From: a virus
Direction: 5' to 3' (one strand)
DNA: 20,107 bases
IMG/VR virus record: IMGVR_UViG_3300011129_000029
Location: 1-20,107 of that record
Under the pieces are notes generated by a model. It had not been told where the DNA came from, did no database searches, and worked only from the letters and a program-made list of their open reading frames with translations. This document shows, one piece after another, positions 962 through 5,982 of this stretch. Both the position numbers and the translations under genes were made by a program. The stretch's first letter is position 1, and each line of letters starts with the position of its first letter.

Positions 962-1213
962 ATGCCCTATCAAACTAAAGGTAAAAGAGATTACAAGAAA
1001 GAACTTAACTGGGAAAAGAAAAAGAAACCAGGTAGAGTAAAAGATAGAGCTTCACGCAATGCAGCTAGAAAGAAAGCTGGTCTTAAGAAGGGAGACCCTC
1101 GTCAAGTAGACCATAAGGATAATAACCCTAGAAACAATACTAAAAAGAATCTGCGCAAGGTTGCAGCTAAGACTAATCTAAAGAAAGAATCAAAGAGGAA
1201 AAAACGTGGCTAA
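962..1213 (+). CDS. Mini HNH-type endonuclease-like protein
   Basis: This 83-residue, very basic protein carries an HNH_3-like core at residues 49-64: VDHKDNNPRNN followed by NL. Asp50-His51 match the metal/catalytic DH pair, Asn58-Asn59 and Asn63-Leu64 match the conserved NN...NL of the family, and Asn72 may stand in the third HNH position. No zinc knuckle or target-recognition domain is visible, so this is close to a bare nuclease core or a truncated homing-type enzyme. Known HNH proteins nick or cut DNA; in phages they act as homing nucleases or assist packaging. It is not next to the terminase here. The start has no clear Shine-Dalgarno sequence and follows an A10 run. It overlaps the next gene by 8 bases. 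Activity is unproven; a basic DNA-binding relative is an alternative. Confidence 0.65.
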   Translation: MPYQTKGKRDYKKELNWEKKKKPGRVKDRASRNAARKKAGLKKGDPRQVDHKDNNPRNNTKKNLRKVAAKTNLKKESKRKKRG

Positions 1214-1553
1214 AATAGACCTACCTACCATATCATCTGGTTATGCTAGTAATACAACATTTAATACTACATTTACCACAATAGAAAACGAGTTCCAACA
1301 AAAAGTATTATATCGAGATAATCCTACTGGTGAACCTAACTCCATGCAGAATGACCTCGACTTGAATAGTAATGACATCAACAATGTTAAAGATATAACA
1401 ATGACTGGTGATTTTACTGTAGACGGGGTAGATTATTTAACATCAATGCAAACCCTATATGACAATTACCTAGCTTTAATTGATAGGGTAACAATTAGTA
1501 CAGATTCTCCTTCTGGTGGTTCAGATGGTGATATCTGGTTTAAAGTAACTTAA
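1206..1553 (+). CDS. Tail fibre or fibre-collar protein (short)
   Basis: The 115-residue protein starts at GTG 1206 (product MAKIDLPTISSGYAS...), chosen because AGAGG lies about 7 bases upstream and the MAKID start suits the family. The N-terminal part, with INxxF/ENEFQ-type helix followed by VLYRDNPTGEPN and LNSNDINNVKDI, is a pattern I know from N-terminal regions of marine podophage tail fibres, where it helps attach the fibre to the tail. The segment DLNSNDINNVKDITMTG looks like the start of a beta-helical fibre shaft, and the end DGDIWFKV is a common fibre/adaptor ending. In larger fibres this region continues into a long shaft; here it stops at residue 115 and other short fibre genes follow, so it may be an anchor for separately encoded fibre parts. 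Confidence 0.65.
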   Translation: MAKIDLPTISSGYASNTTFNTTFTTIENEFQQKVLYRDNPTGEPNSMQNDLDLNSNDINNVKDITMTGDFTVDGVDYLTSMQTLYDNYLALIDRVTISTDSPSGGSDGDIWFKVT

Positions 1554-1566
1554 GGAGAAATAATAA

Positions 1567-1959
1567 ATGGCAGCTTTATCGGATTATGCAGAAAAGCTAT
1601 TACTAGACTACTCGATGACAACAGGTTCTGTTACTCGTCCTACAGCTTGGTATGTAGCATTATATACAGTAGCACCTAGTGATTCAGGTGGTGGTACAGA
1701 AGTTTCAGGTGGTGGATATGCTAGAAAGACAGTAGCATTTGCAGCAGCAACTTCAGGAGCAGGAACTACATCTAACTCAGGTGATGTATCATGGACAGCT
1801 TCAGGAGCTGCTTTTGGTACTGTAGTAGCTATTGGTATTCATGATGCATCATCAGGTGGAAACTTGTTATGGCATGGTAACATGACAGCATCTAAAACAA
1901 TTGCTGATGGTGATACATTAGAATTTTCAGCTGGTAATATCGACTTAACCTTAGCTTAA
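1567..1959 (+). CDS. Tail fibre-associated or structural beta-sandwich protein
   Basis: A 130-residue protein with a good binding site (TAAGGAGAA, 8 bases before ATG). After an N-terminal helix (LSDYAEKLLLDY) come the motifs WYVALYTVAP, GGGYARKTVAF and GDVSWTASG, then a Gly/Ser/Thr-rich beta region. I recognise this pattern as a small, widespread phage structural or tail-associated protein; I cannot attach a precise family number. No transmembrane segment. It lies between the presumed fibre anchor and the repeat protein at 1969, which supports a role in the host-recognition apparatus. It could be a small receptor-binding or fibre-tip component. Confidence 0.55.
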   Translation: MAALSDYAEKLLLDYSMTTGSVTRPTAWYVALYTVAPSDSGGGTEVSGGGYARKTVAFAAATSGAGTTSNSGDVSWTASGAAFGTVVAIGIHDASSGGNLLWHGNMTASKTIADGDTLEFSAGNIDLTLA

Positions 1960-1968
1960 GGATACACC

Positions 1969-2784
1969 ATGGCTGACGGTTTTCGAGTCCTTGAAAATGG
2001 CGACAGCAGGATTACGGAAGCCAGTGTATTTCGTATAACGGAACGATTTACATTAGGTGAAGCTACTCTTGCAGGAACTGGTACGTTAAGTGCAAGTCCA
2101 ACTGTATCATTTATAGTTAGCTCTGCTTTAACAGGTACAGGCACACTAGCTGCAGTAGGGATAAGAATACATAATGCAGAGTCTGGATTAACTGGTACAG
2201 GTACTATAAGTGCAGATGGTGATTTAAAAGCATTAGGATTATCAGACCTAGCAGGCAGTGGTAGTATGACTGCTTTAGGTAGAAAAGTATTTTTTGGTGA
2301 AGGTGATTTAACTGGTACAGCTACAATAAGTGTAGTACCATCACATACACAAGTAGCTCTTGCAGATTTACAAGCAGTAGGTAGTAAATTATCTGTAGGT
2401 GAAAGAACACAGTTTGGTCATGCTAATTTTACAAGTACAGGTACTGCATCATTTTTGCAAACCTTTACTGCTAAGCCACTAGCAGATTTAACTAGTACTG
2501 GCACTATATCAGCAGAAGGTGTAGTTAAACAAATAGCTTTTGCAGACTTTACAAGTACTGGAACATTAAGTGCTTTTGCATTAAAAATTAAATTTGGATT
2601 AGCAGACTTAACTGGAACAGGTACTTTAGTTGCTGATGCATTAGAAACAGATATGTATGTTAAAGTAAGTGGTTCATGGGAAGATTCACAACCATTTGTT
2701 AAACATGAAGGTGTTTGGAAAGAACCTGTTATATATAAAAAAGTAAGTGGTGCTTGGAAAAAAGTTTATAGGAAGGGCACTTAA
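1969..2784 (+). CDS. Repeat-containing tail fibre/tip protein
   Basis: The 271-residue protein has three parts. Residues 1-32 carry two RITE motifs (SRITEAS and FRITERF). Residues 33-228 form ten units of exactly 20 residues with the consensus DLTGTGTLSA at the start of each unit (variants include LAGSGSM and FTSTGT). Residues 229-271 carry three copies of a YVK-x-SGSW-like motif (YVKVSGSW, FVKHEGVW, YKKVSGAW). Tandem Thr/Gly beta-strand units are typical of elongated fibre shafts, and the Tyr/Val-Lys...Trp repeats are common at the ends of phage tail and tip proteins. It has a short relative immediately downstream. Codons 1-26 are richer in GC (about 47% by hand count, 1969-2046) than most of the window. 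A receptor-binding role is inferred. Confidence 0.75.
   Translation: MADGFRVLENGDSRITEASVFRITERFTLGEATLAGTGTLSASPTVSFIVSSALTGTGTLAAVGIRIHNAESGLTGTGTISADGDLKALGLSDLAGSGSMTALGRKVFFGEGDLTGTATISVVPSHTQVALADLQAVGSKLSVGERTQFGHANFTSTGTASFLQTFTAKPLADLTSTGTISAEGVVKQIAFADFTSTGTLSAFALKIKFGLADLTGTGTLVADALETDMYVKVSGSWEDSQPFVKHEGVWKEPVIYKKVSGAWKKVYRKGT
2065..2652 (+). repeat. Ten tandem 60-bp units encoding a 20-residue fibre repeat
   Basis: Within the gene at 1969, the residues around (D/A/G)(L/F)TGTGT(L/I)SA recur exactly every 20 residues from residue 33 to 228, that is every 60 bp. Units begin at residues 33, 53, 73, 93, 113, 133, 153, 173, 193 and 213; the last is 16 residues long. Unit 6 (DLQAVGSKLSVGE...) is the most divergent. 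Nucleotide identity between units is limited, so repeat expansion is not recent across the array. Confidence 0.85.
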
Positions 2785-2786
2785 CC

Positions 2787-3092
2787 ATGACTATACAATA
2801 TGGTGAATTTAAAAGTTATACTGATACTGATTTAATCAGAGATTTAGAAACAGGTACAGATATAAGAATCACAGAAGCTGGTGATACTAGAATTACAGGT
2901 GCTGTATTAGTAAATGCTGGTGTAAGTTCTATGACAGCAGAAGGAACTAAATCAGGTTTCTTAAATATTATGTATGTTAAATATTTAGGTGCTTGGAAAA
3001 ATAGTCAACCATATGTAAAACATTTAGGAAGTTGGAAAAAACCAACAAAAATTTATAAAAAAGTAGGAACAACTTGGACAAGGGTTAAATAA
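2787..3092 (+). CDS. Short paralogue of the upstream repeat fibre protein
   Basis: This 101-residue protein has the same three-part plan as the gene at 1969 but almost no shaft. Two RITE-type motifs (DIRITEAG and DTRITGAV) lie at about residues 25-40. They are followed by roughly one shaft unit (VNAGVSSMTAEGTKSGF) and then the same Trp-repeat end (YVKYLGAW, YVKHLGSW, YKKVGTTW). It begins 2 bases after the upstream stop. The pair therefore looks like a long and a short version of the same fibre component, made by duplication with gain or loss of repeats. It could be an alternative tip, or a leftover of recombination that still keeps an intact frame. It overlaps the next gene by TAATG. Confidence 0.7.
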   Translation: MTIQYGEFKSYTDTDLIRDLETGTDIRITEAGDTRITGAVLVNAGVSSMTAEGTKSGFLNIMYVKYLGAWKNSQPYVKHLGSWKKPTKIYKKVGTTWTRVK

Positions 3093-3535
3093 TGGCAAAT
3101 GTAAAAATATCAGGATTAACGGGAGCTTCATCAGTAGCAGACGCTAATGAGTTTGAAATTAATGAATCGGGGACTTCTAAAAAAGTTACTGGTACACAAT
3201 TAAAAACATTTGTATACTCTCCTAATGAAATAACACTAACAGGTACTGGTTCTTTAGAACTACCAACAGGTACAACAGCACAGAGACCAGGCTCAGCAGC
3301 TGCAGGTATGTTTAGATACAACTCAACTACTGGAGCATTTGAAGGTTATACATCAGCTTGGGGTTCTATTGGTGGTGGTGCTTCTGCAGGAGGTGTAATT
3401 TATGAAAATGCTCTTACAGTAACATCAGATTACACTTTAACAACAAACAAGAATGGAATGTCAGTAGGACCAGTTACACTAGGTACAGGAGTTACTGTTA
3501 CTATTCCTTCTGGACAACGATGGGTGGTATTATAA
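3092..3535 (+). CDS. Tail fibre-like protein
   Basis: A 147-residue protein. The N-terminus (VKISGLTGASSVADANEFEIN...SKKVTGTQLKTFV) is a common phage-fibre opening. The middle has LPTGTTAQRPG, MFRYNSTTGAFEGY and AWGSIGGG, a module I recognise from the shafts and tips of many marine and cyanophage fibres. The C-terminal part (TLTTNKNGMSVGPVTLGTGV then TIPSGQRWVVL) is another familiar beta-rich fibre end. It overlaps the previous stop (TAATG) and is followed after 1 base by another fibre gene. It probably forms part of a multi-gene fibre or an alternative tip; the receptor is unknown. Confidence 0.7.
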   Translation: MANVKISGLTGASSVADANEFEINESGTSKKVTGTQLKTFVYSPNEITLTGTGSLELPTGTTAQRPGSAAAGMFRYNSTTGAFEGYTSAWGSIGGGASAGGVIYENALTVTSDYTLTTNKNGMSVGPVTLGTGVTVTIPSGQRWVVL

Positions 3536-3536
3536 T

Positions 3537-4052
3537 ATGGCTACAATAATTAATGCAGATACAAGTAACGGATTAAAACTAACCTCTGATACAAGTGGAA
3601 TAATAGAATTTCAATCTGGTGGCACAACTAAAGGTGGAGTAAATGCTACAGGACTTACAGGGGATGCCTCTCAATTAACAGGAATACCAGCAGGAGCTTC
3701 TTTATCAACAGCATCTGGTTCAGCACCTAGTTACAGTGCAAGAGCATGGGTTAACTTTAATGGTACAGGTACAGTTGCTATTGGAGCTCAAGGAAATGTG
3801 AGTAGTATTACGGATAATAGCACTGGTAATTATACTGTAAACTTTAATACAGCAATGCCTGATGCTGATTATGCTGTTTCTTTACAAAACACTGCATTTA
3901 GTGCAGCAAATATTGGTGGAAATATTGTAATTGCTGGAACAGCTGCTGGTGGCGCAACTTTAAAATCTACTACACAACTTCAAATACAAACATTTGCAAA
4001 CACTACGGGTGTTTATGATTATGCTGAAATAAATTGCATAATTTTTAGATAA
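3537..4052 (+). CDS. Tail fibre protein with cyanophage-like tip domain
   Basis: The 171-residue protein opens with a beta-rich module (IINADTSNGLKLTSDTSGIIEFQ) often found near the start of short phage fibres. It then has a tip domain beginning ARAWVNFNGTGTVAI, with NVSSITDNSTGNYTVNF and MPDADYAV. I recognise this domain from cyanophage and marine phage fibres, where it is expected to trimerise and bind the host surface. No strong Shine-Dalgarno is present; the ATG lies 1 base after the upstream stop, so translation is probably coupled. The next gene (4062-4307) is a small accessory protein, making the first of three fibre/accessory pairs. Confidence 0.75.
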   Translation: MATIINADTSNGLKLTSDTSGIIEFQSGGTTKGGVNATGLTGDASQLTGIPAGASLSTASGSAPSYSARAWVNFNGTGTVAIGAQGNVSSITDNSTGNYTVNFNTAMPDADYAVSLQNTAFSAANIGGNIVIAGTAAGGATLKSTTQLQIQTFANTTGVYDYAEINCIIFR

Positions 4053-4061
4053 GGAAAAATA

Positions 4062-4307
4062 ATGGATAAAGTAATAGTATATACACAAGACAATGGAACA
4101 GTAGCTATCATAACGCCTGCCGTATCAGTAGAGCATGCACTTAAAGATGTGCCAACAGAAAAAGAATATAAAATTATAGATGTAGCAAACTTACCAACCG
4201 ACAGAACATTTAGAGATGCTTGGGTTCTTGATGGAGCTACTATAAAAATAGATGCTGAAAAACAAGCAGTAATACAAACTAACCTAGATGCAATGGAGAA
4301 TGAATAA
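4062..4307 (+). CDS. Small fibre-associated accessory protein, possible chaperone
   Basis: An 81-residue protein with a good binding site (TAAGGA). It opens MDKVIVYTQDNGTVAIITP and has DVPTEKEYKIIDVANLPTDRTFRDAW, a pattern I recognise from small genes sitting directly after fibre genes in marine phages. Such small partners often act as fibre-assembly chaperones (compare T4 gp38 or lambda Tfa in position, not in sequence), but this has not been shown for this family to my knowledge. The C-terminal third is helical. It is unrelated in sequence to the accessory genes at 4899 and 5719. It overlaps the next fibre gene by TAATG. Confidence 0.6.
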   Translation: MDKVIVYTQDNGTVAIITPAVSVEHALKDVPTEKEYKIIDVANLPTDRTFRDAWVLDGATIKIDAEKQAVIQTNLDAMENE

Positions 4308-4897
4308 TGGCTGATATAGTATTAACAGGAGACACCTCTGGAGCTATTACAGTTGCAGCACCAGCAGTAGCAGGAACAAATACACTTACACTACCTGCAA
4401 GTACAAGCACGATAGCAACAACAGCAGATGTAAACGCACTTACTACAGGTAAAATACTGCAAGTATTACAAGGAACACTTACAACAGGTTTTACAACAAC
4501 ATCTACTTCTTATGCAGATTTATTAACAGTAGCTATTACTCCATCAGCAACAGATAGTAAAGTTTATGTTAGCTTTACAACTAATGCTGGAACAAATGGA
4601 GATGTAAATCATTTATATACTTCTTTGTTTAGAGATACTACAGAAATTGGCAGTGCAACAGCTGCTGATAGTAGAACAGGAGCTCAAACTGTTACAAATA
4701 CTGGTGGTCAACAACAAATGAATTACGCAGGTGCGTTATTAGATTCTCCAAGTTCTACAAGTGCTATTACTTATGCTGTAAAAGTTAAAGTATCTACTGG
4801 TACAGGATATTGGAATAGGTCAGCAAGAGATAATAACGCTGCTGCATATGATGGTAGGACTGTAACACAAATAACAGTAATGGAGGTAGGAGCATAA
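4307..4897 (+). CDS. Tail fibre protein (cassette 2)
   Basis: The 196-residue protein starts with a well-known fibre anchor module (VLTGDTSGAITVAAPAVAG, then NTLTLPAST), followed from about residue 49 by a tip domain beginning KILQVLQG with STSYADLLTVAITPSATDSKV and ending ITVMEVGA. The tip shares its frame (K-x-LQV start, VxITPxAxDS, ITVMEV end) with the fibre at 5186-5719, although the middle has diverged strongly, as expected for host-contacting loops. The codons for the final MEVGA contain GGAGGTAGGAG, which serves as the ribosome binding site of the accessory gene at 4899. Confidence 0.75.
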   Translation: MADIVLTGDTSGAITVAAPAVAGTNTLTLPASTSTIATTADVNALTTGKILQVLQGTLTTGFTTTSTSYADLLTVAITPSATDSKVYVSFTTNAGTNGDVNHLYTSLFRDTTEIGSATAADSRTGAQTVTNTGGQQQMNYAGALLDSPSSTSAITYAVKVKVSTGTGYWNRSARDNNAAAYDGRTVTQITVMEVGA

Positions 4898-4898
4898 T

Positions 4899-5186
4899 AT
4901 GAATACTAAAGCAATATACGCATTATATCCTGATGTAGTAACAATTAGAGAACAAGAAGATGGCTCTGTATTATGTTATAACGCAAAAGATGAGCTTGTA
5001 AAAATTACTAGAACTGTTATTGATGCTTGGGTAGACCCTGAAGAATATAAATATCAAAGAGAACAAGCATATAAACCATTAGCTGAGCAACTAGATATGC
5101 AGTTTCATGATTCACAAGATAGTACTGAAACATGGCTTGACCATATAAAAGAAGTCAAAGCTAAATACCCAAAAGGAGATAAGTAA
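4899..5186 (+). CDS. Fibre accessory protein (cassette 2), possible chaperone
   Basis: A 95-residue protein. Residues 4-60 (KAIYALYPDVV ... VIDAWVDPEEYK ... YKPL) match the first part of the gene at 5719-5982. The C-terminal part (EQLDMQFHD ... W ... IKEVKAKYPK) is a motif I know from many phage tail-accessory proteins. AGGAG 6 bases before the ATG is encoded inside the end of the fibre gene, so the two are translated together. A role in fibre folding or attachment is inferred from this constant position. Its last codons (KGDK) contain the AAGGAG binding site for the next fibre gene, which it overlaps by TAATG. Confidence 0.65.
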   Translation: MNTKAIYALYPDVVTIREQEDGSVLCYNAKDELVKITRTVIDAWVDPEEYKYQREQAYKPLAEQLDMQFHDSQDSTETWLDHIKEVKAKYPKGDK

Positions 5187-5719
5187 TGTCTGTAACAATT
5201 AACGGAACTAATGGGGTTACATATAATGATGGAAGTGTTCAAGCATCTAGTTCAAAAGTTTTACAAGTAGTAACGGTACAACCAGATACAGGGTTAATTA
5301 GCTTTACATCAACCTCTTTTGCAGAAGTAGATTCTGATTTAAGAGTTACAATAACACCTAAAGCATCAGATAGTACATTAATAGTTACTTGTAATTATCT
5401 TTTTGGTGGCAATAATGGAAGTCAAATGACTGCAATGAAACTATATGATATTACAAATTCTACCAATGTTAATACTGCTGCTTTAGGTAGTAGACAACAA
5501 TGTAATACTTCAGTAAGAGATATGAGTTATGATTTAAATGATGCTATTCAAATACAAATACAAGCACAAACAACTTCTGGTTCAACTGTTGCTAGAACTT
5601 ATGGGATGTATGCAAAATTAGAATCAGCAGCAACAAGATACTTTTTTTCTAACCCTAGCGATTCAGGTGCATTAGGTTATGCAAAACCATCAATAACAGT
5701 TATGGAGGTATCAGCATAA
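5186..5719 (+). CDS. Tail fibre protein (cassette 3)
   Basis: The 177-residue protein begins with a short anchor (INGTNGVTYNDGSVQASSS), typical of phage fibre N-termini, followed by KVLQVV and a tip domain with STSFAEVDSD, VTITPKASDS and the ending SITVMEVSA. It is paralogous to the fibre at 4307-4897 in overall frame, but its N-terminal anchor is of a different type, so the two are mosaics. The terminal MEV codons again hold a GGAGG binding site (5704-5708) for the following accessory gene. Host-receptor binding is the likely job; the receptor is unknown. Confidence 0.75.
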   Translation: MSVTINGTNGVTYNDGSVQASSSKVLQVVTVQPDTGLISFTSTSFAEVDSDLRVTITPKASDSTLIVTCNYLFGGNNGSQMTAMKLYDITNSTNVNTAALGSRQQCNTSVRDMSYDLNDAIQIQIQAQTTSGSTVARTYGMYAKLESAATRYFFSNPSDSGALGYAKPSITVMEVSA

Positions 5720-5982
5720 TGAAAGCAATACATACACTATATCCTGAAGCAGTAAAAACTAAAGTTAAAAGTAATACTGAAATGTATGCTTGGGATAAAG
5801 ACGGAAAAGAAATTGAATTAGATTTAGATGCTATTAATAATTGGGTAGACCCAGAAGCATATAAAGATAAAAGACGAGCAGAATACCCTACACTACGAGA
5901 GTGTGTTCATGCAATTCTTGATGGTAATTTAGAATCTTTACAAGAAGCTAGAAACAAAATTAAGGCTAAGTATCCTAAATGA
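5719..5982 (+). CDS. Fibre accessory protein (cassette 3), possible chaperone
   Basis: An 87-residue protein whose first 58 residues (KAIHTLYPEAV ... AINNWVDPEAYKDKR ... YPTL) match those of the accessory gene at 4899-5186. The C-terminal part is different: RECVHAILDG ... LQEARNKIKAKYPK, itself a recurring ending in phage tail-accessory proteins. Both end in K-x-KYPK. The pair therefore shares an N-terminal half and has swapped C-terminal halves. It overlaps the fibre upstream (TAATG) and the membrane-protein gene downstream (ATGA). A fibre-assembly role is inferred from position. Confidence 0.65.
   Translation: MKAIHTLYPEAVKTKVKSNTEMYAWDKDGKEIELDLDAINNWVDPEAYKDKRRAEYPTLRECVHAILDGNLESLQEARNKIKAKYPK

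Follow-up and report, generated by a model that had tools for sequence, protein, structure and literature searches.

A gene pair for a putative modular tail arm in a Zobellviridae podophage, with relatives whose shaft regions differ in length by whole 20-residue units

Results

Organization of the locus

The window, i.e. the whole stretch of 20,107 nucleotides that was analysed (IMG/VR record IMGVR_UViG_3300011129_000029), has structural genes for terminase, portal/head-tail connector, capsid and tail proteins. About three quarters of it can be matched, at ∼94% nucleotide identity, to MEP402 and MEP401, which are described as Methylophilales phages of the Zobellviridae with OM43 bacteria as hosts (PMC10580990). 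The virus is most likely a Zobellviridae podophage of ocean bacteria whose host, as for these closest relatives, belongs to OM43 (Methylophilales). The features that concern us are the following.

1206–5982: fibre block
1567–1959, + strand: homologue (130 aa) of PF23140, the podophage GP4 'fiber I' protein gp80 (Pfam E 3.5e-40; PDB 8jou_a E 8e-10)
1969–2784, + strand: open reading frame of the long protein (271 aa; head, ten 20-residue units and Trp tail), with orthologues in 26 other distinct two-gene loci
1969–2058, + strand: head of the long protein, residues 1–30, with three RITE-type motifs 8 residues apart (R6, R14, R22; invariant residues in the alignment)
2059–2658, + strand: shaft of ten 20-residue units, residues 31–230 (autocorrelation and unit register)
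2059–2178, + strand: units 1–2, a locally divergent patch (nucleotide identity and dS comparison)
2653–2769, + strand: Trp tail of the long protein, three YVKxxGxWK-type hairpins (alignment, hhalign)
2787–3092, + strand: short protein (101 aa; RITE head, about one degenerate unit and Trp tail), homologous to the C-terminal module of single-gene relatives
2955–3089, + strand: Trp tail of the short protein, residues 57–101, three predicted beta-hairpins (pLDDT about 64–82)
3092–3535, + strand: MANVKIS-type tail fibre gene, directly after the short module (so placed in 101 of 102 loci with downstream sequence)

The protein encoded at 1567–1959 scored far above the curated cut-off of PF23140 (137.7 versus 27 bits) and covered positions 1–128 of the 128 in the family profile. 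We used the long, short, gp80-like and single-gene proteins to gather relatives and obtained 105 distinct loci; one partial match in a MAG, which came from a scan of genome contigs, was excluded from the analysis. The gp80-like gene was found directly upstream of the RITE protein in every locus except that of a distant Arthrobacter phage, and the order of gp80-like collar protein, shaft (where there is one), short module and MANVKIS fibre gene was essentially invariant. In essentially all the loci the appendage genes thus lie inside the tail gene block, between the gp80-like and the MANVKIS-type genes. A tail fibre is an elongated, usually trimeric beta-rich shaft with a C-terminal receptor-binding tip, and from the gene order it is plausible to call the long and the short proteins fibre proteins.

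The unit array of the long gene is old and diverged

A sequence-only reading of this DNA had described the gene at 1969 as ten exact 20-residue units set between a RITE-motif head and a Trp-repeat tail. The number of units and the exact period were recognized correctly, and so were the Trp tail and the head, whose motifs are at residues 6, 14 and 22. The lag-20 BLOSUM autocorrelation of the long protein was 1.06, whereas 5000 shuffles reached at most 0.29 at any lag, and the units follow the consensus xxLTGTGTLSAxGxxxxxxx, the last of them running into the Trp tail. The array begins at 2059, six bases before the start at 2065 that had been proposed. The exactness did not extend to the sequence of the units, which have a mean identity to one another of 33% in amino acids (range 10–50%) and 50% in nucleotides; Tandem Repeats Finder reported no array in the unit region of the gene. 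We also observed an alternating-residue periodicity in the autocorrelation and a register that is kept across the units at 33% identity. The array is old and diverged, and is not a 60-bp tandem repeat.

Ten units were present in all arrays of the window's clade (six genomes compared; MEP401-type methylophages). Units at the same position in the six genomes are 91% identical in nucleotides and 88% in amino acids, whereas units within one array are 51% and 33% identical, and these genomes gave no sign of concerted evolution or slippage. As the number is fixed at 10 and same-position units match best, there is no sign of current gain or loss of units in this clade. A variable-number tandem repeat has near-identical DNA units whose copy number varies among close relatives; with such divergent units, no array reported by Tandem Repeats Finder and a constant count in all the close relatives, this array is not of that type.

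Shaft length in relatives follows a 20-residue ladder

The two-gene form of the window was found in 27 of the 105 loci, with either 10 units (268–273 aa) or 11 units (291–293 aa, or 320 aa with a longer head). The single-gene form, found in more than 70 loci, joins a head and a shaft to a second RITE head and one Trp tail in the same protein. Counted from the final motif of the first head, the second head of these proteins mostly lies at a spacing of 59, 119, 139, 199, 239 or 279 residues, which corresponds to 20n − 1 with n = 3, 6, 7, 10, 12 and 14. Upon grouping the shafts at 60% identity into 30 families, we observed that all families in which exactly two heads were detected fall within 2 residues of this ladder, the exception being one member, L119, which has extra head motifs. 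The shaft families share ancestry, and the strength of the ladder is in the six different spacings and not in the number of loci; many families have a spacing of 119 or 139, and those of 59, 239 and 279 occur in dissimilar shafts. The proposal that the length of the fibre changes by gain or loss of 60-bp units thus survives in part: counts in related genomes range from 3 to 14 units, with whole-unit differences between lineages, but within the window's own clade the number stays at 10, with no current gain or loss.

Some single-gene relatives carry additional domains. In L104, L106 and L138 the protein (about 431 aa) has an N-terminal domain of ∼190 extra residues, and the head and the usual 7-unit shaft come after it. 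The 1095-aa protein of L100 (965–4252) has about seven units, a second head and a Trp tail behind a large N-terminal domain, and sits between the gp80 and MANVKIS genes.

The short protein corresponds to the C-terminal module of fused relatives

The short protein has RITE motifs at residues 27 and 35 followed by about one degenerate unit, and its Trp tail and that of the long protein are homologous (hhalign 99.7%, E 3e-27, 58 columns). In this respect the earlier description, that the next gene keeps the same head and tail with about one unit, was borne out. However, the profile of the single-gene proteins aligned with the short protein over 96 columns up to the C-terminus (hhalign 99.94%, E 9e-37), and one pair of short protein and fused C-terminus is 60% identical over 85 aa without a gap. 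The long protein aligns to the remainder of the single-gene protein plus the tail. From these two alignments, the long and short proteins together, minus the Trp tail of the long one, equal the fused protein. In addition, three phages have no shaft at all: a 99-aa short-type gene directly follows their gp80-like gene.

Judged by these alignments, the short protein is a homologue of the C-terminal module that is fused to the shaft in most relatives. As the module is homologous to the fused C-terminus and is present in every locus, the short gene, going by its sequence, is not a shortened or collapsed copy of the long gene but a version of the end piece that is encoded separately. The idea of a short and a long version of one fibre kept side by side therefore had to be given up, the module even occurring alone in the three shaftless phages. 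The annotation changes accordingly: what is conserved is the small 'hypothetical' gene, to which the repeat protein adds an optional extension.

Split and fused states interchange repeatedly

The long and short genes abut or overlap, with a gap of −4 to +2 nt in 26 of the 27 two-gene loci, as expected for coupled expression; in the exception, L132, the apparent overlap is larger and depends on the chosen start codon. A gp80 tree was too poorly resolved for mapping the two states and hence a TerL tree was used. In this tree the two-gene state is found in one supported clade with the single-gene loci L063, L142 and L204 nested inside, and the well-supported branches force at least four changes of the two-gene label. 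The two-gene and single-gene states have thus interchanged repeatedly. One record of the set, IMGVR_UViG_3300021961_000065 (L059; 74.8 kb), contains a pair of TerL genes at a distance of 43 kb, whose identities to the window's TerL are 77% and 82%, and possibly represents two viruses joined.

Shafts and C-terminal modules are exchanged independently

The locus is mosaic. When L061 (n = 10) is compared with L114 (n = 6), identity is 0.86 for gp80 and 0.84 for the C-terminal module, but only 0.53 for the shaft. Shafts that are dissimilar where the unit number differs, despite similar gp80 proteins, point to replacement of the module. Module duplication also happens: a single-gene relative, L241, has a tandem duplication of the head and first unit at 1563–1832 (135 nt, 87% identity). 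Going by these comparisons, it appears that between lineages the shaft changes its length mainly by replacement or duplication of modules and not by slippage of identical repeats.

The C-terminal module moves independently of the shaft. Between L066 and L218 the shaft identity is 0.49 and that of the C-terminal module 0.87, and between L061 and L059 the values are 0.93 and 0.76, respectively. We saw no sign of gene conversion between the two Trp tails of one genome, as the within-genome identity (0.51) is lower than the long-to-long identity (0.58).

A smaller exchange probably affected the first two units of the window. Units 1–2 are 75–80% identical in nucleotides to L005, L006, MEP401 and MEP402, compared with ∼95% around them, and dS in this patch is 0.42 as against 0.04–0.12 in the rest of the long gene, which suggests that the patch was acquired by recombination. 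Positive selection was rejected as its cause because dS is also high there.

Fold predictions and family matches

AlphaFold2 monomer models were made with the window and contig proteins as input rows. The model of the long protein is all-beta with two strands per unit, but at a pLDDT of 43.5 it is too weak to name a fold. That of the short protein has an overall pLDDT of 59 and is confident only in the three hairpins of the Trp tail. Foldseek found no match to the short model in the PDB, and in BFVD it returned CRP-5 and other phage Trp-hairpin tails, so that this tail recurs in many phage proteins. It is probable that every unit of 20 residues makes up one repeat of a beta structure; the alternating-residue autocorrelation and the low-confidence all-beta model fit this reading without proving anything.

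Profile searches of the PDB with the long and short proteins gave only weak matches (3jx8, 4opw) to uncharacterised proteins, and neither protein matched the chains of 8JOU or other solved chains in sequence at a convincing E-value. The Trp tails of both match phrog_6977 ('minor tail protein'), the match covering only positions 243–282 of 284 of this profile, i.e. the Trp tail and not the family as a whole. The beta-helix adhesin families DUF2807 and Fil_haemagg were rejected, their scores (17.3 versus 24.2 bits and 13.9 versus 21.5 bits, respectively) being below the curated cut-offs.

Comparison with known phages

The same gene pair with 10 units is present in MEP401 (gp59/gp58) and MEP402 (gp62/gp61), where it is annotated just as 'tail protein' and 'hypothetical protein'; the repeats and the gene pair are not mentioned in the parts of the main text of PMC10580990 that were covered here. 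The Roseobacter phages CRP-4 and CRP-5 (Veravirus, Zobellviridae; PMC6918029) have RITE heads, units and a Trp tail in gp54 and gp55, respectively, and this RITE protein is directly downstream of the gp80-like gene as in the window. They differ from the window in having one fused gene and extra internal RITE heads, and the spacings in the CRP-4 group and CRP-5 fall partly off the 20n − 1 ladder (113, 96 aa).

In the tail of the Ralstonia podophage GP4 (PDB 8JOU), fiber I gp80 (PF23140) is homologous to the window's protein at 1567–1959. Another chain of this structure is described as a fibril that links the adhesin to the nozzle collar (PMC13243795), and this chain has no sequence match to the long or short protein. 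The minor tail proteins of Arthrobacter and Microbacterium phages, together with phrog_6977, have the C-terminal Trp-hairpin tail in common with the long and short proteins; mostly just their last ∼40 residues match, and no RITE motif was detected in Truckee gp29.

Discussion

The above results are best explained if the long and the short proteins form two parts of a single tail appendage in a Zobellviridae podophage, a reading to which we would assign a probability of about 0.65. The short protein would be the conserved core, made of a RITE head, one unit and a Trp-hairpin cap, with the gp80-like collar protein on one side of it and the following tail fibre on the other. The long protein would act as an optional spacer, or shaft, in which a head of its own precedes 20-residue beta units in integer number and a separate Trp cap. 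Most relatives would make both parts as one polypeptide, which lacks the shaft's own Trp cap and ends in the short module, and in the window's clade they would come from separate, abutting genes. Shaft length would be set in integer units, probably because a regular beta-rich fold gains one repeat with every unit. The sequences themselves show the architecture, the quantised spacing, the homology between the short protein and the fused C-terminus, the synteny and the mosaicism. From them we infer that virions contain both proteins, that the two are in contact and that the units build an elongated arm; the existence of fused homologues suggests that the split proteins interact.

If the two were instead independent receptor-binding proteins that form separate, similar fibres, the fused form would be a coincidence of domain shuffling. 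Each has a complete head and Trp tail and could assemble alone, and the C-terminal module does recombine independently of the shaft; even so, we consider this unlikely given the fixed gene order, the abutting or overlapping genes, the near-full-length homology of the short protein to the fused C-terminus and the repeated interchange of split and fused states. The model of the sequence-only reading, in which the fibre varies in length through gain or loss of 60-bp units and the short and long versions are kept as alternatives, has in its favour the head motif and tail common to both genes and the whole-unit differences between lineages. It has become improbable with units that are old and diverged without concerted evolution, a number fixed at 10 in all close relatives, and a short protein homologous to the C-terminal module of shaft-bearing single proteins, a module that every locus has.

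It is equally hard to credit that the repeats of the long protein are a low-complexity Thr/Gly/Ser spacer without any structural repeat, the ladder reflecting only descent from a few ancestors. The unreliable AlphaFold model and the lengths of 119 or 139 common to many families would be in line with this. However, six different spacings all equal 20n − 1, including 59, 239 and 279 in dissimilar shafts, and the alternating-residue periodicity and the register persist at 33% identity.

Taken further, the two-part appendage would be a previously undescribed modular tail arm of the Zobellviridae and related podophages, varying in whole 20-residue steps (0, 3, 6, 7, 10, 11, 12 or 14 units), with a tip or core module that is always kept, fused or separate, and is traded independently of shaft length. 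We put this forward tentatively, at somewhat less than even odds. The length of phage arms is thought to matter for receptor reach through surface layers, and to our knowledge there are few natural series with length steps of whole structural units. The ∼100 loci from phages of aquatic bacteria make up such a ladder; it runs from shaftless forms up to 14 units, with neighbours that stay constant and repeated split and fused states. If the proposal is true, they would provide a natural ruler series for relating arm length to the host envelope.

Other genes of the fibre block

Downstream of the gene pair, fibre-like genes at 3537, 4307 and 5186 alternate with small genes (4062–4307, 4899–5186 and 5719–5982). 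The small genes at 4899 and 5719 have a match to phrog_9114 in common, and may encode fibre-assembly partners. Pieces of the region 3504–5232 are 91% identical in DNA to Venkman, a phage of Methylophilales (OM43) that belongs to another viral group. This similarity suggests that fibre genes may have been exchanged between unrelated phages of one host group.
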